Origin: Lachnospiraceae bacterium | GTDB taxonomy: Bacteria; Bacillota; Clostridia; Lachnospirales; Lachnospiraceae | Length of the DNA stretch: 64,000 nt | NCBI GenBank assembly: GCA_017626095.1 | Contig: JAGAJL010000014.1 | Location: 23,685 to 87,684 of the forward strand | Reading direction: 5' to 3' | Shown: piece after piece, positions 22,576 to 55,508 of the stretch | Layout: every line of letters begins with the position of its first letter | Numbering within the stretch: the stretch's first letter is position 1 | Notes under the pieces: model-generated | The model's database searches: none | The model's input: the letters and a program-made list of their open reading frames with translations, nothing else | What the model was told of the DNA's origin: nothing | Made by a program: the position numbers and the translations under genes

Positions 22576-22697
22576 TTGATTGCGGTGAATAATTGTGCTA
22601 ATATGTGCATATGATATAGATGTAGTGAGCTACATCTTTTGGGCTGGTCGAAAGACCCGGGTCCACCAAACGGCGGGTAAGACACCCGCCATTTTTT
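22576..22697 (+). ncRNA. Small-RNA module E (antitoxin-like, toxin lost)
   Basis: Promoter TTGATT (22576-22581), 17 bp, TAATAT (22599-22604). The transcript, about 22611-22697, has a hairpin GATGTAGTGAGCTACATC, a GGGCTGGTCGAAAGACCC hairpin, and a terminator GGCGGGT/ACCCGCC with a T run. The terminator end ATTTTTTATGTGAAATCTTG is shared with modules A, B and D, and it matches the 3' end of the holin-like toxin gene read on the other strand. The rest of the toxin gene is missing here. It borders the first cassette of the island. Confidence 0.6.
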
Positions 22698-22767
22698 ATG
22701 TGAAATCTTGTAAAAAGGAGAGCTTGTAACATATAATCAAATTGAATTAAAAAAGGAGTTGTTTTAA

Positions 22768-23313
22768 ATGGCTCATACCAGTTGTTATAACAAACATGGT
22801 ATGTGGAATGGGGATGGGAAACCGGTTGTTTATGCATATAGAATTGGTTTCTTAGTTGAGTATATGAATAGGCATCCGGACTTTAAATTGTGTGTGCCTA
22901 CAACTGAAAATAAATATGGATATGATATATTTGATATAGAAGATGAACTTGCTAGTGAATTTCCCAAGGATAGTCTTGACATCTGGTATTGTGATGAGTG
23001 TGGATGCCTGGTTGTTTTTTATTCGGATTACAGAATTGATTATGAACCGATAAAAGATTTGTCACAGATTTCATATGAAGATATTAAAGAATGGACAGAT
23101 TATATAGCATGTAGGGAAAAAGAATTTGAAGAGTTTCAGAACTATTATGAAGAAATGAACCCTGTTAATGCGGCAATGAATTTTCAGTTTAAATGCAGAT
23201 ATAAAGTATCCGTTGATATGAAGTATATATATGGTTATGATTCAAATTACAACATAGTGCTCGGATTTGAATTGAAACAAGATAGGGCGTTGAACAAGGA
23301 TATGCATGTTTAG
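22768..23313 (+). CDS. Conserved protein of unknown function, copy 1
   Basis: 181 residues, acidic, rich in Tyr and Asp, starting MAHTSCYNKHGMWNGDGKPV. One CDECGC motif could bind zinc. No family recognised. A second, almost identical copy lies at 32067-32612; the upstream 60 bp with the AAAAAAGGAGTTG site are also duplicated. The next gene encodes a BFD-like protein, present as a relic after copy 2. Confidence 0.75.
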   Translation: MAHTSCYNKHGMWNGDGKPVVYAYRIGFLVEYMNRHPDFKLCVPTTENKYGYDIFDIEDELASEFPKDSLDIWYCDECGCLVVFYSDYRIDYEPIKDLSQISYEDIKEWTDYIACREKEFEEFQNYYEEMNPVNAAMNFQFKCRYKVSVDMKYIYGYDSNYNIVLGFELKQDRALNKDMHV

Positions 23314-23342
23314 AACCATTTGAGAAGTATTAGGAGCGGAAA

Positions 23343-23537
23343 ATGAAACGAGAAAAGATAGCTTGTAATTGCAAAAATATTACTTACGGAATGATTGAGG
23401 ATGCAATCGCAAATGGTGCGTCCTCATATGAAGAAGTGGAAGCACAGTTAAAATTTGGGACAGGCTGTGGACAGTGCAAGGAATTTATTCATTTCCTGAT
23501 TCGGGATATTCTTGAAGAGCAGGGAAAAGGGTTTTGA
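23343..23537 (+). CDS. BFD-like [2Fe-2S]-binding domain protein
   Basis: 64 residues. CNC at 8-10 and CGQC at 42-45 supply the four Cys in the spacing of bacterioferritin-associated ferredoxin domains (IACNCKNITYGMIEDAIANG, then GTGCGQC). Such domains carry a [2Fe-2S] cluster and often accompany NifU- or nitrite-reductase-like proteins; here the partner is unclear. An AGGAGCGGAAA site precedes the ATG. Confidence 0.8.
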   Translation: MKREKIACNCKNITYGMIEDAIANGASSYEEVEAQLKFGTGCGQCKEFIHFLIRDILEEQGKGF

Positions 23538-23565
23538 TAATTTGGTCGGTAATGAAGGAGAATGC

Positions 23566-24651
23566 ATGAGCTTATTGGACGTATTCATTAGGAAAAGAAA
23601 AAGTGAAAATGGTAATTCATCAGTAATTGAAAATACTTATGAATATTGTCCACGTTGTGATGCAAATTTAACATTGCAGAAAGGATATAGTAATGAACTT
23701 CCTTACTGGAGTTGTAGAGGTTGTGGAGAAATGCTAATTAATCCTGAAATTGATGTGGAAGATGATATTTCATGGATTTGTGATGGCTGCGGTTGCATGC
23801 TTAATATACAAGATGAGTTTTCAAGTGATTGTGGTAAATGGAAATGTACCAAATGTGGATTTGTTAATAAAATAGATGAATCGGAAATGTACTTATCTGA
23901 AGATGAATTTCAACAGAGTCTTCACAATCCATATAAGGGGTTATCTGACGCAGAGGTACTAGAACTTTCAATATATGAAGAAATAGATACAATTGGTGGC
24001 AGGTCAGATATTATTCTGGTAAAGAATCGAGAAAATGAAGAGCTATATGTAAAGAAGATTCTAAAAGATTATGACCTCAGCGTATATAGACATCTTCAAG
24101 AAAATTCTGTAGCATTTATGCCTCGATTAGTGGGTCTATTTGAGGGCAATAATAATCTTGTGATTGTTGAGGAATATATCGAAGGAAGAAGCTTATCTGA
24201 AATACTATCTGATGAATGTCTATCCATTGAATGCGCAATAGATATCGCAAAGTGCTTATGCAAAATACTGATTGAACTTCATGGAAAGAAGATTATTCAT
24301 AGAGATATTAAACCGTCCAATATTATCATAGGAAATGATGGAAAACCATATCTGTTGGATATTAGCGTTGCTAAATGGTATAAGCCGGAAGAAGTGGAGG
24401 ATACGAAGCTTTATGGAACACTTTACTATGCAGCGCCAGAACAGTTTGGATATGGATTTTCGGCATCTTCAGAAAAAACGGATATTTATGCAGTAGGGAT
24501 TCTTCTTAATGTCATGATAACTGGTAAACTACCTAAGGAAGAAAGAGTAACAGGTGCGGTATGGAATATTATTGAGAAATGTATTAGTTTAGAACCGGAG
24601 AAACGTTATTCTTCGGCTGAGCTAATTGATGCTCTTGAAAGGATTGGATAG
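23566..24651 (+). CDS. Zinc-ribbon Ser/Thr protein kinase-like protein
   Basis: 361 residues. The N-terminal 100 residues hold two zinc ribbons (YCPRCDANL/WSCRGCGEML and WICDGCGCML/WKCTKCGFVN). A protein kinase domain follows: ELYVKKILKDYD (Lys), VIVEEYIEGRSLSEIL (hinge), IIHRDIKPSNIIIGNDGKPY (HRD, residues about 245-247), and GTLYYAAPEQFG. The magnesium-binding DFG is DIS (LLDISVAKWY), a departure, so activity may be altered. Start at 23566 follows AAGGAGAATGC. Five bases separate its stop from the XRE-like partner. A similar kinase-partner pair, in another arrangement, lies at 28.4-30.0 kb. Confidence 0.8.
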   Translation: MSLLDVFIRKRKSENGNSSVIENTYEYCPRCDANLTLQKGYSNELPYWSCRGCGEMLINPEIDVEDDISWICDGCGCMLNIQDEFSSDCGKWKCTKCGFVNKIDESEMYLSEDEFQQSLHNPYKGLSDAEVLELSIYEEIDTIGGRSDIILVKNRENEELYVKKILKDYDLSVYRHLQENSVAFMPRLVGLFEGNNNLVIVEEYIEGRSLSEILSDECLSIECAIDIAKCLCKILIELHGKKIIHRDIKPSNIIIGNDGKPYLLDISVAKWYKPEEVEDTKLYGTLYYAAPEQFGYGFSASSEKTDIYAVGILLNVMITGKLPKEERVTGAVWNIIEKCISLEPEKRYSSAELIDALERIG

Positions 24652-24656
24652 ATGCG

Positions 24657-25106
24657 ATGCAGGAAAAAAGTACAGATGAGATTGAGAAACTTCTTGAAAG
24701 TATGAAGCCAAATCAATTGGATGTTTTTTATAAAGAAAATGATAAGTATATGGATGATGACAAAAAAGCATTTTATTATTACATGAAAAATACTTTAGAA
24801 TCAAAAAATATTTTTTTAAAGGACATGTATATTTTTGCAGGATTATCTGAGACTTATGGAGAAAAAATAATTAGAATGGAGAAACATACAAAGGATAGAA
24901 ATTTGATTATTCGATTGTGTGTTGCCGGTCATTTTTCCTTAGTTGAAGTGAATAAAGCACTTAAGCTATATGGCATGAATACACTTTATGCAAAGGATAA
25001 GAGAGATGCTTGTCTTATAGTGGCAATAAATAATAGAATATATGATTTTGGTATTATTGATAGCATGATGGAAAAACAGGGATTACAGAAATTATCAGCA
25101 GAATAA
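24657..25106 (+). CDS. XRE-like partner of the upstream kinase
   Basis: 149 residues. The middle resembles an XRE-like bundle: YYYMKNTLESKNIFLKDMYI, then FAGLSETYGEKIIRMEKHTK, IIRLCVAGHFSLVEVNKALK, LYGMNTLYAKDKRDACLIVA. The same series recurs in the protein at 29588-30049 and, more distantly, at the C-terminus of the macrodomain protein at 54300. It likely binds DNA or pairs with the kinase as a substrate; this is inference from the conserved neighbourhood. A good terminator follows at 25117. Confidence 0.7.
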   Translation: MQEKSTDEIEKLLESMKPNQLDVFYKENDKYMDDDKKAFYYYMKNTLESKNIFLKDMYIFAGLSETYGEKIIRMEKHTKDRNLIIRLCVAGHFSLVEVNKALKLYGMNTLYAKDKRDACLIVAINNRIYDFGIIDSMMEKQGLQKLSAE

Positions 25107-25685: not shown

Positions 25686-26189
25686 ATGAATTTACTGGAA
25701 CAGGTTGTGAGTATATTAATAGAGAATTTTTTGGGGTTGGATATGATTATTATAGGATTAGCAGTTGCTAATGCATTGTTCTTCTATCTGCCAACAAAAA
25801 TAAATACTGATAAGATTTATTCTCATTTCAATAAAACGGATAAGACGAGCAATCTGAATAATTATTCAAAAAAGGCATTTGGCATTTTACCGAAGGAAGA
25901 AAAATTAAGTGTGGATAAGCTTCTTGATTATCGAGAAAAAATGAATAAATCATATTCTTATTTTTCGAATATTTCAACTATGTTTCCTTTGTTTGGAATG
26001 TTAGGAACAGTTATGTCTTTGATGCCAATTGTGGGAAGTGCGGATGCGAATTTTTTTGAAGCATTAACATCTACATTCTGGGGAATTGTGTTTGCTATTA
26101 TTTTCAAGGCTTTGGATGCAGGAATATCATATAAAATAGACGATAATGAAAAACATATGGATTATTTCTTTAATCCAAGTAATATGTGA
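25686..26189 (+). CDS. ExbB/TolQ/MotA-like ion-channel subunit
   Basis: 167 residues with three membrane helices: about 18-36, and a pair within residues 94-148. The key block FPLFGMLGTVMSLMPIV, then EALTSTFWGIVFAIIFKALD, is the MotA/TolQ/ExbB signature (GLLGTVxGLxxxF ... AL.TT..GL..AI). Such subunits form a five-fold ring that uses the proton or sodium gradient to drive a partner dimer. It is shorter than ExbB and much shorter than ZorA. First gene of a four-gene unit with overlapping or adjacent starts. In a Gram-positive host without an outer membrane this is unexpected. Confidence 0.75.
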   Translation: MNLLEQVVSILIENFLGLDMIIIGLAVANALFFYLPTKINTDKIYSHFNKTDKTSNLNNYSKKAFGILPKEEKLSVDKLLDYREKMNKSYSYFSNISTMFPLFGMLGTVMSLMPIVGSADANFFEALTSTFWGIVFAIIFKALDAGISYKIDDNEKHMDYFFNPSNM

Positions 26190-26196
26190 GGTATGT

Positions 26197-26865
26197 ATGA
26201 AAAAAAGAAACTTGATTCTTGATTTTACTTCACTTTTAGATGTTATTATGATTATTCTATTTGCTGTTTTGTCTCAACAAAAAGGGGCATTTAATGAGCA
26301 GACAAAGCAACTTGAAAATGTGCAGGAACAATATGAAAGTCAAATTGAGGTATATGAAGAACTTGCCAGTGAAAACATTGAACTTACGGATCGAATAAGT
26401 GAACTGGAAGAAGAAACAAAGGAACTTCGGTATGCTGCCGGAAGGTACGGAAGTACTGACAGAGAACAAACATATGATGATGTGATGGGTGAACTAATCA
26501 CTATTAAATTACTAATTGGTACACATATTAATGAAAATACAAATAGTTCTGAAGCAGAGATAAGTGTTTTTATGAAAGAAAATTCCGATGAGGAAATTGT
26601 AGTTGATAAGTTTGTTATTTCGCATGATACTGGGTTGGATGATGAGCAAAGAAAGCAGGCGATTTCAAAAGCAAAGAATGATTTTACGAATACTTTGTAT
26701 GAGTTATTGCTTGAGCGCGAAGGTGAATTATTCTTATTTACAATCGAATACAATTATGATGATCCGGCAGTATCATCAAAAGATTTTGAAATAATAGAGT
26801 ATTCAATCAATGAGTTAGGCAGAAAGTTAGATAAAAAGTGCTATATCGAAAAAGTGAAAAAATGA
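26197..26865 (+). CDS. ExbD/MotB-like stator partner with coiled coil
   Basis: 222 residues. The N-terminal MKKRNLILDFTSLLDVIMII has the short cytoplasmic start, a membrane helix and the conserved Asp just before it (DFTSLLDVIM), as in ExbD/TolR and MotB. A coiled coil follows (residues about 30-80, EELASENIELTDRISELEEE), then a globular outside domain of about 130 residues. No OmpA-type peptidoglycan-binding motif is seen. GAGGT precedes the ATG at 26197, 7 bp after the ExbB-like stop. Probably a dimer that sits in the ExbB-like ring. Confidence 0.7.
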   Translation: MKKRNLILDFTSLLDVIMIILFAVLSQQKGAFNEQTKQLENVQEQYESQIEVYEELASENIELTDRISELEEETKELRYAAGRYGSTDREQTYDDVMGELITIKLLIGTHINENTNSSEAEISVFMKENSDEEIVVDKFVISHDTGLDDEQRKQAISKAKNDFTNTLYELLLEREGELFLFTIEYNYDDPAVSSKDFEIIEYSINELGRKLDKKCYIEKVKK

Positions 26866-26882
26866 TATACGGGGGATATGAA

Positions 26883-27296
26883 ATGATGTGCTCAAAAATG
26901 AAAAATGCTGGAAATGATTTAATAAAATTATTGATTGGTATCGCTGTGCTGGTTATTGTCGCTTTGCTTATTATTCTTTTATTTAAAGGATTTGGATTCG
27001 GCTTTGGAAAAGGAAATGGCGAAGGCGATGGTACCGGAAATGCTGTTGAAACAATGGCACAAAATAGCGATAATATTGAAGAACAAGAAGAGAATGATGT
27101 ATTAACTATTGAAGTAAAAGAAAACAAGTATTATGTAGATGATAAAGCGGTTACGATATCAGAAATAAAAGAGCTTTGTACAAATGGCGATGTTAAGGAG
27201 CCGATTTTCATAATAAATAATTATGCGTCTGCGAAAGAATGGGATGCATTAAAAGATTGTTTAGGAGAACTTAATGTCTCGTTTCAAGAGAAGTAA
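26883..27296 (+). CDS. Second ExbD/TolR-like protein (membrane anchor plus periplasmic-type domain)
   Basis: 137 residues. A membrane helix (LIKLLIGIAVLVIVALLIIL) is followed by a Gly-rich linker (GFGFGKGNGEGDGTGN) and a domain whose sequence VLTIEVKENKYYVDDKAVTI, then SEIKELC and EPIFIINNYASAKEWDALKD, follows the ExbD/TolR periplasmic fold (strand, turn, strand, helix, strand, helix). The N-terminal membrane Asp of ExbD is not obvious. It may be the output domain of the complex. GGGGGATATGAA precedes the ATG at 26883. Overlaps the DUF1232 gene by 23 bp. Confidence 0.6.
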   Translation: MMCSKMKNAGNDLIKLLIGIAVLVIVALLIILLFKGFGFGFGKGNGEGDGTGNAVETMAQNSDNIEEQEENDVLTIEVKENKYYVDDKAVTISEIKELCTNGDVKEPIFIINNYASAKEWDALKDCLGELNVSFQEK

Positions 27297-27777
27297 AGAA
27301 ATAGCTAATTACACATGTCAATACGGAGATAAGAAATGCTGCAAAGATTCCACGGAAATTGCTGGTAGGTGGATTTTAGAATCGTTTGTATGTGCGAGGA
27401 AAACTGAAATGTCTGATAAACTAAAAGCAAGAGCAAAGCAATTAAAGAATGATGTTCCTACTGTTTTTTTATCGCTTAAGGATAAGGATACGCCTGTTGT
27501 TGCAAAAATAGTTGCTGCTATTACAGTTGCATATGCTTTATCCCCGATAGATTTGATCCCGGATTTTGTACCGGTACTCGGTTATCTGGATGATGTCATT
27601 TTACTTCCCGCATTAATCGCATGGACGATTCGGTTGATACCGAAAGACATCTGGGAAAAAAATAAACAAAATGCAGAAGATATGTGGAAGGATGGACGAC
27701 CAAAGAAATGGTTCTGTGCTATTCCGATAATTCTTTTGTGGGTTTTGATAATTTGGTTGATAATGAAGGCTGTTTGA
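27274..27777 (+). CDS. DUF1232 (YkvA-like) membrane protein
   Basis: 167 residues. The DUF1232 core is clear: AKIVAAITVAYALSPIDLIP, DFVPVLGYLDDVILLPALIA. The N-terminal 50 residues with CQYGDKKCC could bind metal. A C-terminal membrane helix (FCAIPIILLWVLIIWLIMKA) is added. Function of the family is unknown. The ATG at 27274 follows AGGAGAACTTA. Last gene of the ExbB/ExbD unit. Its 3' end (27740-27769) shares 28 of 30 bases with 23529-23558, downstream of the BFD-like gene, a likely recombination trace. Confidence 0.8.
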   Translation: MSRFKRSKEIANYTCQYGDKKCCKDSTEIAGRWILESFVCARKTEMSDKLKARAKQLKNDVPTVFLSLKDKDTPVVAKIVAAITVAYALSPIDLIPDFVPVLGYLDDVILLPALIAWTIRLIPKDIWEKNKQNAEDMWKDGRPKKWFCAIPIILLWVLIIWLIMKAV

Positions 27778-27785
27778 TGGGAAGA

Positions 27786-27829
27786 ATATCGTATCATAAT
27801 AGTAATTTTATCGTATCATAATAGTAATT
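27786..27829. repeat. Tandem 22-bp repeat before small-RNA module A
   Basis: ATCGTATCATAATAGTAATTTT occurs twice head to tail, ending a few bases before the -35 box of module A. Confidence 0.8.
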
Positions 27830-27833
27830 TTAT

Positions 27834-27953
27834 TTGACGAAATAAGATAAAGTGCTATAATATAATCACAAAGGCATTACCGATAGACGGTTGCCCCAAA
27901 TATAGTAATTAAAAAATAATCGCTAGTTTGTTAGGCTCGGCGATTATTTTTTA
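27834..27953 (+). ncRNA. Small-RNA module A, antitoxin of the holin-like toxin
   Basis: Promoter TTGACG (27834-27839), 16 bp, TATAAT (27856-27861). Transcript about 27868-27953, ending in terminator ATAATCGC (27916-27923) with GCGATTAT (27940-27947) and a T run. It contains CCGATAGACGGTTGCCCC, conserved in modules B and D and, in variant form, C. Its 3' end overlaps the 3' end of the toxin gene on the opposite strand, the layout of txpA/RatA and bsrG/SR4 type I systems. Confidence 0.7.
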
Positions 27954-28030
27954 TGTGAAATCTTGTAAACAAGACCGATGATAGTGACAATGAGTATTCC
28001 AAGCTGGAATAAAGCATCATATGTAACCAT
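27944..28030 (-). CDS. Holin-like type I toxin (28 aa)
   Basis: 28 codons: MVTYDALFQLGILIVTIIGL, then VYKISHKK. A single membrane helix with a basic tail, the MVTYxAL start and length of the putative holin-like toxin family (type I toxins such as TxpA relatives). GAGGGTGATGCC precedes the ATG. The mRNA leader carries GGTAGGCGGTTGCCC (complement of 28079-28093), which can pair with its own 3' region, the complement of 27882-27896. A TATAAT-like box is seen on the minus strand near 28125. Likely a membrane-damaging peptide held off by the overlapping RNA. Confidence 0.75.
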   Translation of the reverse strand: MVTYDALFQLGILIVTIIGLVYKISHKK

Positions 28031-28446: not shown

Positions 28447-29529
28447 TTATGAAATGATGGAAACAATAAGAACCATTATAGTCATAAACGCAAAGAAAAT
28501 GAGTACATCAAAAAGTAGGACAGCCAATATCCTAAGCGGAAGTTTCTTGGTCCGGCAGGGAGGAAACTGTGACTGGACATTTCTATAATTTGCTGTACAA
28601 AAAATAATGGAAAGAATCATCAGTAAACAAAAGATTCTCTCGAAAAGCAATGCCGCAGGTGTAGTGTCTTCTACCTCTAAGGTAAGGCATAACCAAAAGA
28701 GAAAAGCATAACCGGCCCCGGATAAAAGCATATTAATCGGGGATAATTTTTGAAATCCCGGCGGAAGATAACTCGTCCAGGAAGGTAATTTGCCGGCAGG
28801 TTCCATTGAAGTAGATTCGTTTTTGCAAAGGATGCGGAGGATGGAATTTACATCTTTGTATCTTTCGCTTGCGTTTAACTTAGTACATTTTGTAATAATG
28901 GAAGTAAACTCATTCTTTTGCCTGCTTTCAAGATATGCCGGGCAAGAAGTCAGCTCCTTTAGCAGCATGCCGATTGCATAAATATCCGTCTGGGTTGTGG
29001 AAACACCAAATCCATATTGTTCCGGGGCAGCATAGCCTTTGGTGCCTAATAAAGTGGTGTCTTCTTCCTTGTAGTCAGAGTGATATTTTGCGGCATTAAA
29101 ATCCAAAAGGAATAGTTCACCGGAAGGTGAAAGGATGATATTTGATGGTTTAATGTCGCGATGAATGATGGAAGGAACGCAATCGTGAAGTTCTTTTACA
29201 ATGGTGCAGAGTTGAATTGCGATATCCCGTATTTTTTCATTTGAAAAAGACATGTTGCTTTCCAATAGTTGCTCCATCGTATCACCGGAAATGTATTCTT
29301 CGATAATGTATAATTGGTTTACTTCCTCATACACTTCATAAATCCTTGGAGTATGGGGAATGGGATTGTTGCGAAGATGTTCATAGACGGACTTATTGTA
29401 TATATCTAAAATTTTTTTAATATAAATCTTATTTGTTTCCATGTGCTGAACAACATATATTTTATGTGCTTCGCTAATGGTAGCAATCGGTTTGTAAAAT
29501 GATATGGATAACCTCGATTCAATATCCAT
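28447..29529 (-). CDS. Membrane-anchored Ser/Thr protein kinase-like protein
   Basis: 360 residues. Kinase domain: KIYIKKILDIYN (Lys), LYIIEEYISGDTMEQLLE (hinge), IIHRDIKPSNIILSPSGELF (HRD), LLDFNAAKYH (DFG present as DFN) and GTKGYAAPEQYG, which ends at about residue 245. After a short linker, three or four membrane helices follow (NMLLSGAGYAFLFWLCLTLE; RIFCLLMILSIIFCTANY; ILAVLLFDVLIFFAFMTIMV). The ATG at 29529 follows GGGTGGATACT; a GTG three codons upstream is possible. It is divergent from its XRE-like partner with about 58 bp between them, and is related to the kinase at 23566, which has a zinc ribbon instead of membrane helices. Confidence 0.8.
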   Translation of the reverse strand: MDIESRLSISFYKPIATISEAHKIYVVQHMETNKIYIKKILDIYNKSVYEHLRNNPIPHTPRIYEVYEEVNQLYIIEEYISGDTMEQLLESNMSFSNEKIRDIAIQLCTIVKELHDCVPSIIHRDIKPSNIILSPSGELFLLDFNAAKYHSDYKEEDTTLLGTKGYAAPEQYGFGVSTTQTDIYAIGMLLKELTSCPAYLESRQKNEFTSIITKCTKLNASERYKDVNSILRILCKNESTSMEPAGKLPSWTSYLPPGFQKLSPINMLLSGAGYAFLFWLCLTLEVEDTTPAALLFERIFCLLMILSIIFCTANYRNVQSQFPPCRTKKLPLRILAVLLFDVLIFFAFMTIMVLIVSIIS

Positions 29530-29587
29530 AGTATCCACCCTTTCTCGTTACGTATACGAATTCATTATAGCAGAGGAGCAAGAAAGA
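29530..29587. promoter_or_regulatory. Divergent control region of kinase 2 and its partner
   Basis: The 58-bp gap holds a CGTATACG palindrome (within TTACGTATACGAAT, about 29547-29560), a natural site for a shared regulator such as the XRE-like partner. GAGGAGCAAGAAAG serves the plus-strand gene. Confidence 0.4.
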
Positions 29588-30049
29588 ATGAATAAAAAAA
29601 GTACAGAGGAATTAGAAAAGATTTTAGGAACAACCCATATCGAAGACATCGATGGATATCTTTCTGAAAATGCTGAGAGTATTTTGTCTTCGTACAGACC
29701 TTTTTCCGATTACATTCGATCTATCATAAAAGAAAAAGGCTTACGTCAACAAGATATTTTTTTGGATGCGGATATTCCGGAAAGATACGGATACAAATTG
29801 ATAACAGAGGAAAAACGTACTCGTCAAAGGGATGTTATCATACGGATTTGCTATGCGGCTCACATGAATCTTGATGAAACACAAAGGGCACTAAAGTACT
29901 ATCGGATGCCGGAGCTGTATGCGAAGGTTCCAAGGGATGCCTTAATCATGATTGCCATTAATGAAAGACCCGGTAGCATTCTTGATGTGAATAGTTTTCT
30001 TAAGAAAAATGGGATGGAAACATTACGATCAAGCGGGGTACAGGAATAA
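29588..30049 (+). CDS. XRE-like partner of kinase 2
   Basis: 153 residues. Same architecture as the protein at 24657: N-terminal MNKKSTEELEKILG (as QEKSTDEIEKLLE), then FSDYIRSIIKEKGLRQQDIF, PERYGYKLITEEKRTRQRDV, IIRICYAAHMNLDETQRALK, YYRMPELYAKVPRDALIMIA. The RTxxRDVIIR and ETQxALKYY blocks are the most conserved. The first part looks like an XRE-type bundle that binds DNA or acts as a kinase substrate. GAGGAGCAAGAAAG precedes the ATG. Confidence 0.75.
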   Translation: MNKKSTEELEKILGTTHIEDIDGYLSENAESILSSYRPFSDYIRSIIKEKGLRQQDIFLDADIPERYGYKLITEEKRTRQRDVIIRICYAAHMNLDETQRALKYYRMPELYAKVPRDALIMIAINERPGSILDVNSFLKKNGMETLRSSGVQE

Positions 30050-31444: not shown

Positions 31445-31801
31445 ATGAAAGTATGGAAGTTAGTTTCGGGTATTATATCCATTGTTTTATGTTTGATTAT
31501 TGAATTGCAGTCATGTGCGGCAGGCGTAGTGAATACCATTGAGGAGAATGGTGGGTCTTCCGGATCGGTTGGATTTCTTTGTGGAATTCTGATTCTTGCA
31601 GGTGGTATTGTTTCCATCGCATCGAGAAAGTCCGCTAAAAATGGTGGAAATATTGCATTGATTGTATTGTTTGGCCTTGCAGCATTACTTGGATTTACCG
31701 GTTATGGGAACTACAGCGATTTGGTTATTTGGTCAATATGGGCACTGGTAAATGCGGTCCTTGCAGTTGTGGCGCTTGTAAAGAATAAGAATAGTATTTG
31801 A
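31445..31801 (+). CDS. Small membrane protein
   Basis: 118 residues, four predicted membrane helices (LVSGIISIVLCLIIELQSCA; VGFLCGILILAGGIVSIASR; IALIVLFGLAALLGFTG; LVIWSIWALVNAVLAVVALV). It resembles small TMEM-like proteins of Firmicutes with unknown function. GGAGGTACGAAAGA precedes the ATG. The stop codon overlaps the -35 box of small-RNA module B. Confidence 0.65.
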   Translation: MKVWKLVSGIISIVLCLIIELQSCAAGVVNTIEENGGSSGSVGFLCGILILAGGIVSIASRKSAKNGGNIALIVLFGLAALLGFTGYGNYSDLVIWSIWALVNAVLAVVALVKNKNSI

Positions 31802-31912
31802 TGAAATAAGAGAAAGTGCTATAGAATAATCACAAAGGCATTACCGATAGACGGTTGCCCCAAATATAGTAATTAAAAAATAATCGCTAGTTAGGCTCAG
31901 CGATTATTTTTT
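31798..31912 (+). ncRNA. Small-RNA module B (toxin gene truncated)
   Basis: Promoter TTGATG (31798-31803), 16 bp, TATAGA (31820-31825). The transcript from about 31832 has the same ACCGATAGACGGTTGCCCC core and terminator TAATCGC/GCGATTA with T run as module A, but lacks six bases (GTTTGTTAGG is GTTAGG). On the minus strand the toxin frame keeps only its C-terminal part (VTIIGLVYMISHKK) and has no start codon. The sequence then joins the duplicated leader of the second 181-aa gene. Confidence 0.65.
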
Positions 31913-32066
31913 ATGTGAAATCATGTAAACAAGACCGATGATAGTGACAACAAATACTGTTGACAGATATAGTGGTCTAAATTGCGCAGGATTTTTATTG
32001 GATATCTTGTAAAATGGAGAGATTGTAACATATAATCAAATGGAATTAAAAAAGGAGTTGTTTTAA

Positions 32067-32612
32067 ATGGCTCATACCAGTTGTTATAACAAACATAGTA
32101 TGTGGAATGGGGATGGGAAACCGGTTGTTTATGCATATAGAATTGGTTTCTTGGTTGAGTATATGAATAGGCACCCGGACTTTAAATTGTGTGTGCCTAC
32201 AACTGAAAATGAATATGGATATGATATATTTGATGTAGAAGATGAACTTGCTGATGAATTTCCAAAGGATAGTCTTGATATCTGGTATTGTGATGAGTGT
32301 GGATGTCTGGTTGTTTTTTATTCGGATTCCAGAGCTGATTATACACCGATAAAAGATTTGTCACAGATCTCATATGAAGATGTTAAGGAATGGACAGATT
32401 ATATAGCATGTAGGGAAAAAGAATTTGAAGAGTTTCAGGACTATTATGAAGAAATGAACCCTGTTGATGCGGCAATGAATTTTCAGTTTCAATACAGATA
32501 TAAAGTATCTGTTGATATGAAGTATATATATGGTTATGATTCAAATTACAACATAGTGCACGGATTTGAGTTGAAACAAGATAGAGTGTTGAACCTTGAT
32601 GTGCGTTTTTAG
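32067..32612 (+). CDS. Conserved protein of unknown function, copy 2
   Basis: 181 residues, near-identical to the product of 22768-23313 with scattered changes (for example KHSMWN for KHGMWN, ENEYGY for ENKYGY, FQYRYK for FKCRYK). Both keep the CDECGC motif and the same leader with AAAAAAGGAGTTG. Conserved duplication suggests it is functional, though both might only be passengers of a recombining cassette. Confidence 0.75.
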   Translation: MAHTSCYNKHSMWNGDGKPVVYAYRIGFLVEYMNRHPDFKLCVPTTENEYGYDIFDVEDELADEFPKDSLDIWYCDECGCLVVFYSDSRADYTPIKDLSQISYEDVKEWTDYIACREKEFEEFQDYYEEMNPVDAAMNFQFQYRYKVSVDMKYIYGYDSNYNIVHGFELKQDRVLNLDVRF

Positions 32613-32644
32613 AACTATTTGGGAAGTATTAGGAGAGAGCAGAA

Positions 32645-35887: not shown

Positions 35888-36646
35888 ATGGTACCCGGAA
35901 TAGACTCTTTCAGAGAAAAATTTAAAGATTATACGGATTATTACACTATTATCGGTGGAACTGCCTGTGATATTTTGCTCACAGAGGCCGATCTGCCATT
36001 TCGAGCAACAAAAGATATTGATATGATCCTGATTATGGAGGATAACTTCCCGGAATTTGCAGATATATTTTGGGAATACATAAAAGAAGGAGGTTATAAG
36101 TGCGGATGGAAGAATGAAGATAATATGCACTTTTACCGTTTCACAGAAGGTAAACTCGGTTATCCTACTATGATTGAGTTGTTCTCAAGAAAGCCGGGCT
36201 ATCATCTTGAAATAGAAGAGGGAATCATTCCGATTCATATTGATGATGATACTTCCAGTTTATCAGCGATTCTTCTGAACGATGACTTCTATAAATTTAT
36301 GATGTCCGGACGCAGAGTGGTTGATGGTATTGGTGTTCTGGGAGCAGAGCATCTGATTCCATTCAAAATGTATGCGTGGATTAACCTTTTAGAACGAAAG
36401 AGAGCCGGTGTGCATGTCAATGAAAAGGATCTAAAGAAGCATAAGTACGATGTATTTCGCTTGCTGCAGATTGCCACATCAGGAATAAAAGTCGAATCAG
36501 AAGGATTGGTGAAAGAAAGTATTTATAGATACATTGAGGAAATCAGTGCAGTAGATGAATCGGAAGTAAGACTTTTGCAGATGGGAATGCCTTTTGATAG
36601 AGATAGGGGCGTGGAGTTGTTTAAGGAGATTTATTTGACGAAATAA
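35888..36646 (+). CDS. Nucleotidyltransferase-fold toxin-like protein (AbiEii-like), pair 1
   Basis: 252 residues. The MNT core reads IIGGTACDILL (GG at about 22-23), then RATKDIDMILI (D-x-D metal site). LSAILLNDDFYKFM and a C-terminal helical part follow. AbiEii- and MNT-type toxins transfer nucleotides to tRNA or proteins and arrest growth when phage or loss of partner relieves them. Whether this one is active is not known. Its last codons overlap the -35 box of small-RNA module D. Confidence 0.75.
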   Translation: MVPGIDSFREKFKDYTDYYTIIGGTACDILLTEADLPFRATKDIDMILIMEDNFPEFADIFWEYIKEGGYKCGWKNEDNMHFYRFTEGKLGYPTMIELFSRKPGYHLEIEEGIIPIHIDDDTSSLSAILLNDDFYKFMMSGRRVVDGIGVLGAEHLIPFKMYAWINLLERKRAGVHVNEKDLKKHKYDVFRLLQIATSGIKVESEGLVKESIYRYIEEISAVDESEVRLLQMGMPFDRDRGVELFKEIYLTK

Positions 36647-36754
36647 GATAAAGTGCCATAATATAATCACAAAGGTGTTACCGATAGACGGTTGCCCTAA
36701 ATATAGTAATTAATAAATAATCGCTAGTTTGTCAGGCTCGGCGATTATTTTTTA
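36635..36754 (+). ncRNA. Small-RNA module D (toxin gene truncated)
   Basis: Promoter TTGACG (36635-36640), 16 bp, CATAAT (36657-36662). The transcript from about 36669 keeps ACCGATAGACGGTTGCCC and terminator AATCGC/GCGATT with a T run. On the minus strand the toxin frame is cut off shortly after IGLVYKISHKK. The remaining stretch to 36907 holds no gene. Confidence 0.65.
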
Positions 36755-36907
36755 TGTGAAATTTTATAAACAAGACCGATGAATAAAACAAAAGTGCTAT
36801 TTATTGGACATCAAATCTGCCATTCTTGTATTAGATAAAAGCACCAGAAATGGAAAAATTACCAGATAAACAATAAATCAATTAAAAAACAGAAAGGCGG
36901 GATTAAC

Positions 36908-42247: not shown

Positions 42248-43750
42248 ATGATTACAGGCGAATTAAAGAATCGAATCGATAGTTTATGGGAAATATTTTG
42301 GACCGGAGGACTTACAAATCCTTTGGATGTCATCGAGCAGATGACATATCTTATGTTTATTCATGATCTGGATGTTACTGATAATATACATGCAAAGGCA
42401 AGTGCTATGCTTGGACTTCCTTATGAAAGTGTCTTTGCCAAAGAAGTAAAACTTGGAGAAAGAATAATTGATGGTACACAGCTTAAATGGTCTGTGTTTC
42501 GAGATTATCCTGCGGACAGAATGTATTCTGTAATGCAGGAAATGGTATTTCCGTTCATTAAAAATCTACATGCCAATAAAGACAGTGCATTTTCAAAATA
42601 TATGGATGATGCAATCTTTAAACTGCCTACACCGCTTATGCTTTCAAAAGTTGTAGACGCAATGGATGAACTTTATACACAGATGGACAAGCTAAAGGAT
42701 TCTGATGCCAGAGGAGATGTGTATGAATATCTTCTTTCAAAGCTTGCAACTGCCGGTGTAAATGGCCAGTTTAGGACACCACGTCATATCATTAAAATGA
42801 TGGTAGAACTGATGGAGCCTAAAGCTGATGATGTGATTTGCGATCCAAGCTGTGGTACTGCCGGATTTCTTGTTGAGGCAGGAGAATACTTATGGAGAAA
42901 CAAAAAAGAAGAAATCTTCTATGATAAGCAGAAGAAAGATCACTTTATGAATCATATGTTCCACGGATTTGATATGGATAGAACCATGTTGCGTATTGGT
43001 GCCATGAATATGATGAATCATAGGGTAGAAAGTCCTTTTATTGAATATAGAGACAGTTTGTCGGATCAGAATCCAGACAAAGATAAGTATACTTTGATAT
43101 TAGCAAATCCTCCTTTTAAGGGAAGCCTGGATTCAGATATTGTTTCAGCTGATTTGTTAAAGGTATGCAGCACAAAAAAGACAGAATTACTATTCTTAGC
43201 ATTGTTTATTCGTATGCTTAAAATAGGTGGAAGATGTGCATGTATCGTTCCGGATGGTGTATTGTTTGGTTCATCAAAGGCGCACAAGGATATCAGAAAA
43301 GAAATTGTTGAAAATCAAAGATTGGAAGCAGTTATTTCAATGCCTTCCGGTGTGTTTAAACCATATGCCGGAGTATCTACAGCAATTTTGATATTTACCA
43401 AAACAGAGCATGGTGGAACCGATAATGTATGGTTTTATGATATGACTGCAGATGGATTTAGTCTGGATGATAAGCGTTCCGTTGTAGCTGATAATGATAT
43501 TCCTGATATTATCGAGAGATTCAAAAATCTGGCAGGGGAAAGGGATAGAAAACGAACAGATAAATCATTCATGGTTCCCAAGCAAGAAATTGCAGATAAT
43601 GATTATGACCTCAGTATTAATAAGTATAAAGAGGTTGAATATGTTGCGGTAGAGTATCCACCTACATCAGAGATTATGGCCAATATTCGCGAAATTGAGA
43701 TGGAGATTGGCAAAGAGATGGAAGAGTTGGAGAGATTACTTAATTTGTAG
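42248..43750 (+). CDS. hsdM: Type I restriction-modification methyltransferase subunit
   Basis: 500 residues. N-terminal HsdM bundle, then the N6-adenine methylase domain: VICDPSCGTAGFLVEAGE (SAM, about 199), LANPPFKGSLD (catalytic NPPF, about 286), and LKIGGRCACIVPDGVLFGSS. Together with HsdS it methylates the recognised DNA; with HsdR it forms the restriction enzyme. GGAGAATTAAAAG precedes the ATG. Confidence 0.93.
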   Translation: MITGELKNRIDSLWEIFWTGGLTNPLDVIEQMTYLMFIHDLDVTDNIHAKASAMLGLPYESVFAKEVKLGERIIDGTQLKWSVFRDYPADRMYSVMQEMVFPFIKNLHANKDSAFSKYMDDAIFKLPTPLMLSKVVDAMDELYTQMDKLKDSDARGDVYEYLLSKLATAGVNGQFRTPRHIIKMMVELMEPKADDVICDPSCGTAGFLVEAGEYLWRNKKEEIFYDKQKKDHFMNHMFHGFDMDRTMLRIGAMNMMNHRVESPFIEYRDSLSDQNPDKDKYTLILANPPFKGSLDSDIVSADLLKVCSTKKTELLFLALFIRMLKIGGRCACIVPDGVLFGSSKAHKDIRKEIVENQRLEAVISMPSGVFKPYAGVSTAILIFTKTEHGGTDNVWFYDMTADGFSLDDKRSVVADNDIPDIIERFKNLAGERDRKRTDKSFMVPKQEIADNDYDLSINKYKEVEYVAVEYPPTSEIMANIREIEMEIGKEMEELERLLNL

Positions 43751-43796
43751 AAAGGATATGCAAATTTCATAAATTGATGTTTGCGGGGATGATGAT

Positions 43797-44018
43797 ATGA
43801 CTGAAAAAGAGTTAAAGGTGCCATTTTCTGCACCATTGAATGAATTAGATACAGAAGAGCAGACTTATGGTTGCAGAGCCAATAATTCAGATATTTGTGC
43901 CAATAATTCTATTAAAGGAGTCTGTGCTTTTACTTCAGATGATTGTATCTGCCGTAAACCTTCAAGAGCTTGGAAGAAACAGTATATCAAGTTGAAAGAG
44001 GGTGAACTGAATGGTTAA
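43797..44018 (+). CDS. Small Cys-rich protein between hsdM and hsdS
   Basis: 73 residues with six Cys (YGCRANNSDICANN, then KGVCAFTSDDCICRKPS), likely metal- or cluster-binding. The C-terminus (SRAWKKQYIKLKEGELNG) overlaps hsdS by 8 bp. Unknown function. GGGGATGATGAT precedes the ATG. Confidence 0.65.
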   Translation: MTEKELKVPFSAPLNELDTEEQTYGCRANNSDICANNSIKGVCAFTSDDCICRKPSRAWKKQYIKLKEGELNG

Positions 44019-45126
44019 GGACGTGATTAAACTTGGAGATGTTGCAACCTATATCAACGGTTATGCTTTCAAACCTGAAGATAGAGGCGAGGTGGGATTG
44101 CCAATTATTCGTATTCAAGACCTTACTGGTAATGCGTATGATTTGGGATTTTATGATGGTGAGTATCCAGAGAAAATAGAAATAAATGATGGCGATGTAT
44201 TGATATCTTGGTCTGCAAGTTTAGGTGTATATATTTGGAACAGAGGTAAAGCTTTATTAAATCAGCATATTTTTAAAGTAGTGTTTGATAAAGTAGATAT
44301 TGACAAGAACTATTTTGTATATGCTGTTCGTCAGAAGTTAGATGAAATGGGAATGAAAACTCATGGTGCAACTATGAAGCATATCGTAAAGAAGGATTTT
44401 GATGCGACGTTGATCCCATATCCATCATTAAATAAGCAGGCAGAGATAGCTACTAATTTAAATATAGTTTTCAGAGTTATAGAAGCGCGTAAACAAGAAA
44501 TACAGTTACTAGACGACCTTATCAAAGCCCGATTTGTCGAGATGTTTGTTGATAAAGGTTATCCTTTGGTAGCCCTTGATGATTTGGCTATGGGTAAGGG
44601 GGAATACGGAGCACAATCTGCTTCTATAGAATATGACCCAATGCGTCCTCGATATGTCAGAATAACTGATATTAATGATGATGGAACATTAAATGATGAC
44701 GTGGTTTCATCGGCAAATGTTGAAGACGATGAGCAGTATAAACTTAGTTATGGAGACTTTATGTTTGCTCGTATGGGAGCAACAGTAGGTAAGACTTACG
44801 CATATAAGAGTGGTAATCAGATTTTCGCAGGATACTTAATTCGTTACAAATTGAATCTTGGGAAAATTATGCCTGAATATTTGTATACGTACACAAAGTT
44901 AGATGAATATAAGAATTGGGTTGTACTGAATCAAAGTGGAGCGGCTCAGCCAGGTATTAATGCAAAGAAATATGGTTCTTTACAGATTCCGGTCGCTCCG
45001 TTGGAGGAGCAAAGAAAATTTGCCAACTTCGTCCACCAAGTCGACAAATCAAAAGTTGCAGTGCAAAAGGCTCTTGAGGAAACACAGTTATTGTTTGATA
45101 GCATGATGCAAAAATACTTTGGCTAA
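44011..45126 (+). CDS. hsdS: Type I restriction specificity subunit, first copy
   Basis: 371 residues with the two-target-domain layout of HsdS: TRD1 (VIKLGDVATYINGYAFKPED, to IPYPSLNKQAEIA), a central helix (LQLLDDLIKARFVEMF), TRD2 (GKGEYGAQSASIEYDPMRPR, to IPVAPLEEQRKFA) and a final helix (FVHQVDKSKVAVQKALEETQ). It sets the DNA site recognised by HsdM/HsdR. Full length. It shares 18-bp identities with the second hsdS at the central helix and near the 3' end. Confidence 0.9.
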   Translation: MVKDVIKLGDVATYINGYAFKPEDRGEVGLPIIRIQDLTGNAYDLGFYDGEYPEKIEINDGDVLISWSASLGVYIWNRGKALLNQHIFKVVFDKVDIDKNYFVYAVRQKLDEMGMKTHGATMKHIVKKDFDATLIPYPSLNKQAEIATNLNIVFRVIEARKQEIQLLDDLIKARFVEMFVDKGYPLVALDDLAMGKGEYGAQSASIEYDPMRPRYVRITDINDDGTLNDDVVSSANVEDDEQYKLSYGDFMFARMGATVGKTYAYKSGNQIFAGYLIRYKLNLGKIMPEYLYTYTKLDEYKNWVVLNQSGAAQPGINAKKYGSLQIPVAPLEEQRKFANFVHQVDKSKVAVQKALEETQLLFDSMMQKYFG

Positions 45127-45157
45127 TGATCTATGGAGAAATGAGGGAGATATAACT

Positions 45158-45472
45158 ATGATTTGTTATTTAGATTTACTGAAAAGCTTTGAAAACAATC
45201 CACGCGATATAATAACAATACCGATAACAAAAAGAGAGGGAAAGTGGTTTTATGTTTATGCAGAAAATGGCCGTGTTATTGTAACTGGGGCAAAGGAAAA
45301 GTTTCCAAAGTGTTCAATTAGTAAGAATAGAATCCTTCAAGAGAAAGAGTGTGAAGTGATGTATGAGCTTTATTTGTTGAGGAAACAAGGAAAACAAATA
45401 TCTGCAGAGGCTATGCAAAGCAGTAGGAATCAGGTTTATTGGTATGGTATTTTTAGCGATTTAGGTTATTGA
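45158..45472 (+). CDS. Small protein of unknown function inside the hsd locus
   Basis: 104 residues (MICYLDLLKSFENNPRDIIT, IPITKREGKWFYVYAENGRV). It has a beta strand-rich first half and an alpha second half. No family recognised. GAGGGAGATATAACT precedes the ATG at 45158. It sits between hsdS-1 and the recombinase. Confidence 0.55.
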   Translation: MICYLDLLKSFENNPRDIITIPITKREGKWFYVYAENGRVIVTGAKEKFPKCSISKNRILQEKECEVMYELYLLRKQGKQISAEAMQSSRNQVYWYGIFSDLGY

Positions 45473-45535
45473 TTTGTGTATTTAATATATTTTTGGTTGT
45501 AAGATGTTGGTACATTTTGAAAGGAGTGTATCAAC

Positions 45536-46504
45536 ATGGAAGAAAAAATTGTAAAAGTACTAAATGAAATGTCGGGGTATTTATCAATCACTCAAATGAA
45601 GAAACTGCAGGAGGTAATTATTAAAACTTTTGCAGAGAATGAATCTGAGAAGATAAGCATTTCAAATGATGAATTTTTGAAAATGTTTTTGGCGGCAAAA
45701 AGAGTGGAAGGATGCTCTGAAAGAACAATCCAATATTATAGGGTGACAGTGAATCATATGTTTACACAAATTGATTCGGAAGTCCGTAAAATTACTACAG
45801 AAGATATTAGAGCATATCTGGCTAATTATCAGCGGAGAAATCGTTGTTCTAATGTGACGGTTGATAATGTTAGAAGAAATATTTCAAGTTTTTTCTCATG
45901 GCTTGAGGAAGAAGATTATATTTTAAAAAGTCCGATGAGACGGATCCATAAAATAAAAACAAAGACGGTTGTGAAGAACACTATTTCCGATGAAGGAATT
46001 GAAAAACTTCGAGATGGTTGCAGCGAAATTCGAGATCTGGCAATGATTGATTTATTATATTCCACGGGAATAAGAGTAGGAGAGTTAGTAAATCTAAATA
46101 TAGAAGACATTGATTTAGAAGAACGTGAATGTGTTGTGTACGGAAAGGGAGATAAGGAAAGAAAAGTATATTTTGATGCGAAGGCAAAAGTGCATCTTCG
46201 GAAATATATTGAAAGTCGAGATGATAATAATTCAGCTCTGTTTGTGACCTTGGATGCGCCATATGACAGATTAAAGATAAGCGGTGTTGAAATTAGGCTG
46301 CGTCAGCTTGGTAGAAAACTGGATATAGAAAGAGTCCATCCGCATAAGTTCCGGCGAACGATGGCAACCAGGGCAATTGATAAAGGAATGCCAATTGAGC
46401 AGGTTCAGAAGATTTTAGGACATTCTCAAATTGATACAACAATGCAGTATGCAATGGTAAATCAGAGTAATGTAAAAACATCCCATCAGAAATACATGGC
46501 GTGA
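45536..46504 (+). CDS. Tyrosine recombinase (XerC/D-like) in the hsd locus
   Basis: 322 residues. SAM-like N-terminal DNA-binding domain (EFLKMFLAAKRVEGCSERTI) and a complete catalytic domain: STGIRVGELVNL (R), HPHKFRRTMATR (H-x-x-R), LGHSQIDTTMQYAMV (H and nucleophile Tyr, about 305). Such recombinases sit in hsd loci and shuffle hsdS alleles by site-specific exchange. AAAGGAGTGTATCAAC precedes the ATG. Confidence 0.88.
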   Translation: MEEKIVKVLNEMSGYLSITQMKKLQEVIIKTFAENESEKISISNDEFLKMFLAAKRVEGCSERTIQYYRVTVNHMFTQIDSEVRKITTEDIRAYLANYQRRNRCSNVTVDNVRRNISSFFSWLEEEDYILKSPMRRIHKIKTKTVVKNTISDEGIEKLRDGCSEIRDLAMIDLLYSTGIRVGELVNLNIEDIDLEERECVVYGKGDKERKVYFDAKAKVHLRKYIESRDDNNSALFVTLDAPYDRLKISGVEIRLRQLGRKLDIERVHPHKFRRTMATRAIDKGMPIEQVQKILGHSQIDTTMQYAMVNQSNVKTSHQKYMA

Positions 46505-46568
46505 GAAAATCAAATTGATGTTTGTCGTGCAGATGGCAAGCGTTTATTCGGATTTGTAGGGATGATAG

Positions 46569-47699
46569 ATGAGAGTAAAACTTGGAGATATATTTGAAAT
46601 TGGTTCAGGTGGAACACCTTCAAAGTCACACTCTGAGTATTATGGTGGTAATATTCCTTGGGTTAAAACTGGTGACCTGAAAAATGAATATTTATATGAA
46701 GTCGAAGATTTCATAACGGAAGAAGGATTGAATAATTCATCTGCTAAAATGTATGAAGAAGATACAGTATTAATAGCTATGTATGGTGCTACAATAGGTG
46801 CAACTTCTATTTTGAAAATGAAAGCATGCACAAATCAAGCATGTGCAGCATTTAGGAAGAATGAACAGGTAATACCAGAATATCTATATTATTTTCTTCG
46901 AAGTCAAAAAGAAAAATTTGTTAAAGATGGAGTTGGAGGAGCACAGCCTAATATTTCAGCAGGATACATAAAAAAGGTTGAAATGGAGTTGCCGTCTTTA
47001 GATGAGCAAAAAGTAATAGTAGACATTCTTGATAAAATTTCGGATGTAGTTTGTAAAAGAAGTTTTGAACTTCAGTCCTTAGATGATCTCATAAAAGCCC
47101 GATTTGTCGAGCTGTTTGGTACGCTTCATGATAATGAAAATGGATTTGATGTAGTTACTATTGAGGATGTGTGTTCTTTGGTTAAAGATGGTACACATCA
47201 GACTCCTCAGTATACCGAAGATAGAGAAGAAGGATTTAAGTTTTTATCTTCAAAAGATGTTATGTCACAGAAAATAGATTGGACTGATATCAAGTATATT
47301 CCAGCTGAGTTACATGAAAAGTTGTACGCAACAATTAAACCTCAAAGGAATGACATTTTGATGTCAAAAAATGGCGTTAATTATGGTGTTGCTGCAGTTA
47401 ATGATACGGATGAAGTGTTTGATATTTATGTAAGTCTTGCACTATTAAGGCCTAAAGAAATAATAGATCCAGTTTTCTTTAGGTGTGTAATTAATAATCC
47501 TGAAACAAAGAGGCAATTTGACTCTAGTATAAAAGGTATCGGAGTTCCTAATTTGCACTTGGGAGAGATAAAGAAAACGAAGATATTTCTGCCACCGATG
47601 GAACTTCAAAATGAGTTTGTTGCCTTTGTAGAACAAGTCGACAAATCAAAATTTATGAAAATAGATTACATAAACAAAACAAGGAGGTTTCCACTATGA
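46569..47699 (+). CDS. hsdS: Type I restriction specificity subunit, second copy with short C-terminus
   Basis: 376 residues. TRD1 (VKLGDIFEIGSGGTPSKSHS), central helix (LQSLDDLIKARFVELF), TRD2 (VVTIEDVCSLVKDGTHQTPQ), and EQVDKSK near the end. After DKSK it reads FMKIDYINKTRRFPL, so the usual C-terminal helix (as in copy 1) is missing. It overlaps hsdR by 4 bases (ATGA). It might be a fully working variant or an edited donor. Confidence 0.85.
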   Translation: MRVKLGDIFEIGSGGTPSKSHSEYYGGNIPWVKTGDLKNEYLYEVEDFITEEGLNNSSAKMYEEDTVLIAMYGATIGATSILKMKACTNQACAAFRKNEQVIPEYLYYFLRSQKEKFVKDGVGGAQPNISAGYIKKVEMELPSLDEQKVIVDILDKISDVVCKRSFELQSLDDLIKARFVELFGTLHDNENGFDVVTIEDVCSLVKDGTHQTPQYTEDREEGFKFLSSKDVMSQKIDWTDIKYIPAELHEKLYATIKPQRNDILMSKNGVNYGVAAVNDTDEVFDIYVSLALLRPKEIIDPVFFRCVINNPETKRQFDSSIKGIGVPNLHLGEIKKTKIFLPPMELQNEFVAFVEQVDKSKFMKIDYINKTRRFPL

Positions 47700-55346: not shown

Positions 55347-55508
55347 TCATATGTAAAAATCGGAAGCGCCAGTACAAAAGTACCGGTGCTTTTTTATATC
55401 GGAAAGTGTCGCCAAACAAGCGACCATTTTATGCGTCCGGCCAGATATACTTTATTTGTAATCAAGAGAAATGCAATACCGGAGCATTTCCGGGGACAGG
55501 AGGCAGTT

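Follow-up and report, generated by a model that had tools for sequence, protein, structure and literature searches.

Three adjoining genes in the DNA analysed here probably encode an ExbB-type, ion-driven motor for cells with a single membrane, in which the role of ExbD is divided over two proteins. The genes lie in a stretch of 64,000 nucleotides from a Lachnospiraceae bacterium (assembly GCA_017626095.1, contig JAGAJL010000014.1, positions 23,685 to 87,684 of the forward strand); this whole stretch is called the window, and positions are those of the window unless a locus is named. P1 (25686..26189, plus strand; 167 amino acids, aa) is a channel protein of the ExbB/TolQ/MotA type (Pfam PF01618) with three hydrophobic stretches, as seen by eye; P2 (26197..26865, plus strand; 222 aa) is an axle-type protein with an ExbD-type aspartate helix (DFTSLLDVI), a coiled coil and an outer domain; P3 (26883..27296, plus strand; 137 aa) combines a single membrane helix with a glycine-rich stretch and an outer domain resembling that of ExbD. 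Helices and coiled coil in P1-P3 were judged by eye or by scripted hydropathy.

Seven bases separate the end of P1 from the start of P2. The best starts are 26197 for P2 and 26883 for P3, the latter preceded by a G-rich, putative ribosome-binding stretch (by eye); an ATG at 26862 is a possible alternative start for P3. An initial annotation of the window, made from its letters, had listed these three genes and a following DUF1232 gene, and all four lie where it had put them.

Recurrence of the trio

P1-P2-P3 is a real unit, and its gene order recurs beyond chance. Genome contigs were scanned with an alignment of P1; the best 80 of 382 relatives were kept and, with the window, make 81 loci, each covered for up to 8 kilobases (kb) on either side of P1 and many for less. 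P2 stands behind P1 in 79 of the 81 loci (in L117 and L121 past inserted genes), and P3 follows P2 in 75 by script, or in 76 with L111 added by eye. Four of the loci lacking P3 end early: L167 at 129 and L119 at 773 bases past P1, L118 at 49 and L121 at 217 bases past P2. The genes inserted between P1 and P2 are unrelated (L117, 8880-9563; L121, 8560-9594), so the operon can be interrupted.

Ruminococcus is named in the titles of 41 of the 80 kept relatives (manual count); the others are mostly Lachnospiraceae or unplaced Clostridia, with two Erysipelotrichaceae/Solobacterium and one titled Bacteroides. Relatives occur in the named isolates Ruminococcus bicirculans 80/3, R. flavefaciens XPD3002 and Ruminococcus sp. 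FC2018, which opens the question to experiment.

Channel protein P1

P1 passes the curated cut-off of the Pfam family MotA_ExbB (PF01618; E 1.3e-9, 38.3 bits, cut-off 22.9), in agreement with the initial annotation, which had taken this 167-aa product for a MotA/TolQ/ExbB protein; the same cut-off is passed by all five other P1 tried, four from the window's own family (family A, or type A) and one from type B, described below. Residues G104, G107, T108, V109 and A126-T130 are invariant across the 81 P1 (80 relatives and the window). T108 and T130, found in 81 of 81, are presumably the equivalents of the channel threonines of ExbB. A profile search of PDB with P1 finds MotA structures, the best at E 7.8e-7.

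The window P1 stops shortly past its last hydrophobic stretch and has no long tail. Long, variable P1 tails are seen by eye in some Ruminococcus loci (L139, L160, L165, L170, L175, L183); each ends in a brief motif that recurs among them, contains leucine/isoleucine pairs and frequently has GDD after it; this may be a docking peptide.

No relative of P1 was found in viral contigs (52 pattern matches, none of them a relative), in phages or in plasmids, and an origin from phage or plasmid was rejected on these searches.

ExbD divided over P2 and P3

Read from 26197, P2 carries DFTSLLDVIMIILF, followed by a coiled-coil-like stretch. Neither P2 nor P3 of the window reaches the cut-off of Pfam ExbD/TolR (PF02472), and the window P2 reaches that of no Pfam family. 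ExbD matches at E 0.1 or better were obtained for 17 of 43 P2 tried (best 1.1e-5) and at E 0.1 for 6 of 47 P3 tried (best 0.0044; window P3, E 0.34), these rows having been hand-chosen, window included, from lists of 58 P2 and 66 P3.

Profile-profile comparison points to different halves of ExbD in the two proteins. The canonical ExbD profile was made from 27 of 30 ExbD-type proteins of other Bacillota together with ExbD and TolR of Escherichia coli. For P2 the alignment with it is confined to the channel helix (P 5e-5, against 0.034 for the reversed control), and the P3 outer domain matches the canonical periplasmic domain (P 9.2e-6; reversed controls 0.016 and 0.034); with a smaller canonical set (9 of 30 sequences, narrower motif) the values are 1.4e-5 for P2 and 1.2e-4 for P3. 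Since each protein matches a different half of ExbD, P2 by its helix and P3 by its outer domain, and the reversed controls fail, a split of ExbD into a channel helix on P2 and an outer domain on P3 is supported at the level of sequence profiles. Both descriptions given in the initial annotation are borne out: for the second protein DFTSLLDVIM with helix and coiled coil, for the third a membrane anchor with an ExbD-like outer domain.

The aspartate of the P2 helix, residue 15 of P2 and present in 79 of 79 P2, carries no weight as first counted, because the first pick of P2 used a motif that contains it. A pick of the gene after P1 by position only was therefore read as well; it obtained a gene in 76 of the 81 loci, with an aspartate in 75 of them, the exception being the unrelated inserted gene in L121. 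The five misses are L117 (insertion), L119 and L167 (contig end), and L151 and L163 (start outside the allowed distance).

The helix of P3 differs from that of P2. Its centre holds no aspartate or glutamate in 75 of 75 P3, and over the full 19 residues an acid occurs in one; the same pick, as a control, finds an acid in the helix centre of all 75 P2. P3 is therefore not a second axle. Of the 75 P3, 73 have at least five glycines near the end of the helix, and 73 have more lysine or arginine before the helix than after it; the latter agrees with a cytoplasmic N-terminus.

The gliding motor of Myxococcus, AglR-AglQ-AglS, resembles the trio in having one TolQ-type and two TolR-type genes, as given in PMC3169522. 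There, according to PMC9389320, AglRQ and AglRS can both form proton channels and share a conserved helix aspartate; P3, with its acid-free helix centre, is unlike either TolR-type partner in this respect.

Related types and distribution

Besides type A, two related types were found. Type B comprises 11 loci in which P1, P2 and the P3-like genes are followed by one more conserved gene, for a protein of about 330 aa; in nine of them the cluster holds two P3-like genes. This terminal protein was compared with Pfam for L028 and L033 and matched no family in either. An AIM24-type gene adjoins P1 in five type-B loci (L029, L033, L035, L102, L103), an assignment that Pfam confirmed in both type-B genes tried. 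Type C comprises six loci without the ~330-aa gene, some with the same three-gene order and others with P3 first. Among 17 loci of the other types plus the window, 17 of the 18 have a P3-like protein, with 26 members in all. The type-B operons noted are L028, L029, L030, L033, L035, L102 and L103; beside P1 of L030 stands a vWA-like gene, below cut-off, and a gene with an MCP domain lies further upstream in L033.

In a tree of 86 sequences, including 26 of the 81 family-A P1, types A, B and C group together in a single clade with 43 members (ultrafast bootstrap, UFBoot, 82; type A alone 97). No other sampled sequence falls inside this clade, which lies outside the sampled ExbB/TolQ and MotA. 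The tree thus sets P1 apart, whereas the PDB search with P1 favours MotA. Taken with the predicted split of ExbD, the separate P1 clade supports the view that the trio is an unusual type.

Could the trio be a decayed or displaced remnant of a Ton or Tol system, functionless in a monoderm? Ton systems of monoderms are called likely non-functional in PMC12204202. The invariant channel residues of the 81 P1 argue for selection, however, P1 lies outside the sampled ExbB/TolQ, and P3 is kept in 76 loci, four of the other five ending too early to tell; a remnant is thus very improbable.

The window type is present in 10 of 397 family genomes (own genome included) at E < 1e-45, and any relative at 1e-8 in 27 of the same 397, a Lachnospiraceae-like sample in which two of two genomes of the same genus are without the trio. 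In an even draw across the class the type is present in 1 of 340 other genomes at 1e-20; the family is therefore concentrated in few lineages.

Cell type

The window genome has no match to the models of ExbD (PF02472) and Omp85 (PF01103), which fits a single-membrane cell; as a control, the two models match in 5 and 7, respectively, of 14 genomes, E. coli included. The lack of an outer membrane, on which the initial annotation had built, accordingly agrees with the genome. Motors of this kind are known mainly from two-membrane bacteria, and the trio looks like a version of them in single-membrane gut bacteria.

Proposed mechanism

On the reading preferred here, an ion-driven motor with a divided ExbD that suits a thick-walled cell with one membrane, P1 would form a channel ring, possibly five P1 around two P2 as in 5:2 ion motors, and the aspartate helix of P2 would be the axle inside it. 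Ions entering past the P2 aspartate would move P2, whose coiled coil would transmit the motion outward. P3, by its acid-free helix and glycine-rich hinge, would supply the ExbD-like outer domain beside P2, and P2 and P3 together might exert a pull on something in the wall or on the surface, or might sense it. Ring assembly of P1, ion flow and movement are proposed by analogy with relatives; that the target lies at the wall or surface is a guess.

A regulated ion channel or leak valve, doing no mechanical work and with P3 as its lid, would share the conserved channel residues, would need no force-transducing partner, and none was found, and would suit a P3 helix without the acid of a second axle. 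One stretch of P2 is very variable, however (P2 length range 177-488 aa), as expected for a lever that crosses a wall of variable thickness, and PMC9389320 describes those related complexes whose function is known as motors; such a valve is improbable.

Several points weigh against the motor with a divided ExbD. Neither ExbB nor TolQ came up at E 0.1 or better in the P1 profile search of PDB, and the searches with P2 and P3 listed neither ExbD nor TolR down to E 10, the best matches being a coiled coil for P2 (E 0.16) and TatA for P3 (E 5.4e-4). The outer domain of P2 matches ExbD at P 0.0065, too weak to claim. P3 calls go by position, size and one helix; in the stricter BLAST clustering, P1 is linked in 73 and P2 in 68 of the 81 loci, and the P3 cluster covers just 56. 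In L172 the 417 bases past P2 (after 9589) hold nothing P3-like in the three frames read; this locus may be a trio that lacks P3, or a disrupted copy. The clade of types A, B and C has moderate support at 82, and among the 81 loci the search for a conserved partner beyond the trio found none. The window genome is 86.6% complete, so that its absences are not final.

Comparison with known systems

ExbB-ExbD (Ton) and TolQ-TolR (Tol) are like the trio in a PF01618 channel protein, an aspartate helix (P2) and a periplasmic-type domain (P3). They differ in that the halves of ExbD are on two proteins in the trio, as predicted above, in the position of P1 outside the sampled ExbB/TolQ, and in the Omp85 and ExbD matches that the window genome lacks. 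The MotA-MotB stator is approached by the PDB matches of P1. Unlike it, the trio has a short P1 and stands outside a flagellar locus, and the window P2 and P3 have no OmpA-like Pfam family at E 1 (other P2 and P3 members were checked for OmpA within the 25 most matched Pfam families). A separate motA-type gene is present in the window genome (L001/L042).

ExbB-family proteins are named in Staphylococcus aureus and Clostridium sporogenes in PMC9389320, a review of 5:2 motors, which states that how ExbB of Gram-positive bacteria works with a thick wall and without ExbD remains to be tested. Compared by description, the trio differs from these proteins by two ExbD-type partners below the Pfam cut-off. 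It offers a testable answer: ExbD would not be missing, it would be divided over two proteins below the limit of detection. The MotA/TolQ/ExbB superfamily is treated in PMC12505986 and PMC12204202, and among the titles and abstract openings listed by literature searches none describes the P1-P2-P3 family.

Kinase/partner modules and the question of defence

In the window the trio lies inside a 9-kb block bounded by a direct repeat, two 93.6% identical copies of a 181-aa gene (left copy 22693..23336, right copy 31992..32635, both plus strand), downstream of two tRNA-Leu genes. A relative of about 95% identity (G791) has one copy of the 181-aa gene and then an AAA/DUF4143 gene, the block being missing there; this comparison covers the block site, the P1 search not having extended to the rest of G791. 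The surrounding island holds type I restriction genes, Fic, a helicase-type AAA protein and a tyrosine recombinase.

Two modules of kinase and partner protein, of the same families, flank the trio (23512-25106 and 28447-30049). KIN1 (23512..24651, plus strand; Pkinase, E 5.9e-28) is a Ser/Thr kinase with a cysteine-rich N-terminus and is adjoined by PART1 (24657..25106, plus strand; 149 aa), both possible partners only. KIN2 (28447..29538, minus strand; Pkinase, E 7.7e-29) is a second kinase, with hydrophobic C-terminal stretches (by eye), and PART2 (29504..30049, plus strand) is a second partner protein with 36% identity to PART1.

Across all types 111 loci were compared, a small number of them MotA or unrelated loci, and certain places entered twice (for example L024/L169 and L092/L180); among them, kinase/partner relatives stand beside three type-B operons (L028, L029, L035). 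In 27 genomes that have an ExbB-type gene the partner family occupies 41 places, about 1.5 per genome; without the window genome, 39 places in 26 genomes remain. In 4 of these 26 genomes, each of type B (G052, G116, G135, G193), a partner and an ExbB-type gene are no more than 15 kb apart, where 0.40 would be expected (Poisson P 8e-4); for 10 kb there are three, with 0.27 expected (P 0.003). The test used the very genomes in which the link had first been spotted, the 15-kb limit was chosen once the places were known, and the result is unreplicated. A second family search gave 29 matches with only three new genomes, hence no independent sample. The kinase/partner link to the trio is a lead; the kinase/partner neighbours stressed in the initial annotation gain some statistical support, though only beside type-B relatives.

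These modules bear on a different reading, an anti-phage or envelope-stress alarm in which P1-P2-P3 would sense damage to wall or membrane and signal to the kinase/partner modules, with Zorya as a functional parallel. The place of the window trio between two such modules, in a block missing from the site in the relative, speaks for it, as do the restriction genes and Fic of the island, the excess of nearby partners in the four type-B genomes, and the patchy presence of the type in the family. Against it, the 80 own-family loci hold, within the stretches fetched, no relatives of the kinases, the partners, HsdM, HsdR, the integrase or AAA_14 at 1e-5; up to 21 of the 81 loci have the same ordinary-looking neighbours; P1-P4 (P4 being the DUF1232 protein) match no PADLOC model at E 1; and the kinase link carries the post hoc limits given above. 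Such an alarm is unlikely. Somewhat more room may be given, as a speculation, to a third, undescribed ion-motor lineage in single-membrane gut Clostridia, with a split ExbD and with some members wired to kinases as alarms for wall damage or phage entry.

Zorya shares with the trio a channel of the MotA/ExbB type, an aspartate-bearing partner and an accessory island. It differs in that P1-P4 are without a PADLOC match and the window P1 is without a long tail; membership of Zorya was rejected on the PADLOC result, ZorC-E not having been searched genome-wide.

Recurrence in defence islands, which the initial annotation had named as a check, was not seen: relatives of the restriction genes occur in none of the 111 loci, and no recurrent defence neighbour was found among the 81 (neighbours named by eye; no background rate measured). 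A PADLOC scan of the neighbours matched 52 models at 1e-20, in single members that include helicases and one type I specificity subunit; taking one representative each from 137 of 279 neighbour families, and with no background rate, it is silent on recurrence or enrichment. Of the ion-driven sensor or defence motor of a new type proposed in the initial annotation, the ExbB/ExbD-type unit with an extra ExbD-like protein and its unusual type are supported, and the defence role is not supported. The phage-defence reading is weak, and an envelope task is, we think, more likely than phage defence.

Other neighbours in the window

P4 (27409..27777, plus strand; start most likely at 27409, judged by eye) is a DUF1232 protein by Pfam (E 1e-13), as first annotated. 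It lies outside the unit: relatives were found in 0 of the 111 loci (phmmer, 1e-5), and DUF1232 was rejected as a fourth component. Of the four-gene neighbourhood first suggested, the order P1-P2-P3 recurs and the DUF1232 gene drops out; it looks like a chance neighbour. The restriction genes, listed beside the trio in the same annotation, fare similarly, as do other genes nearby: HsdM, HsdR, the integrase and AAA_14 of the window have relatives in none of the 111 loci, and Fic in one.

The commonest neighbours among the 81 loci, named by eye, are metallophosphoesterase-like (21 loci), patatin-like (18) and M20-type peptidase genes (17). They look like ordinary chromosomal genes in shared Ruminococcus synteny, and a conserved fourth gene was rejected, the commonest neighbour family reaching just 21 loci.

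A repeat of 150-170 bp has three copies in the window (27820-27990, 31784-31950, 36630-36782), the first of which overlaps the gene of a 28-aa Hol_Tox-type peptide (27944-28030, minus strand; Pfam E 4.4e-7). In the type I restriction genes (42248-51001) two specificity genes flank a tyrosine recombinase (45536-46504), and the region looks like a phase-variable specificity switch. At 54300-56315 a macro-domain gene adjoins an ADP-ribosylglycohydrolase gene, which suggests a pair for the reversal of ADP-ribosylation.

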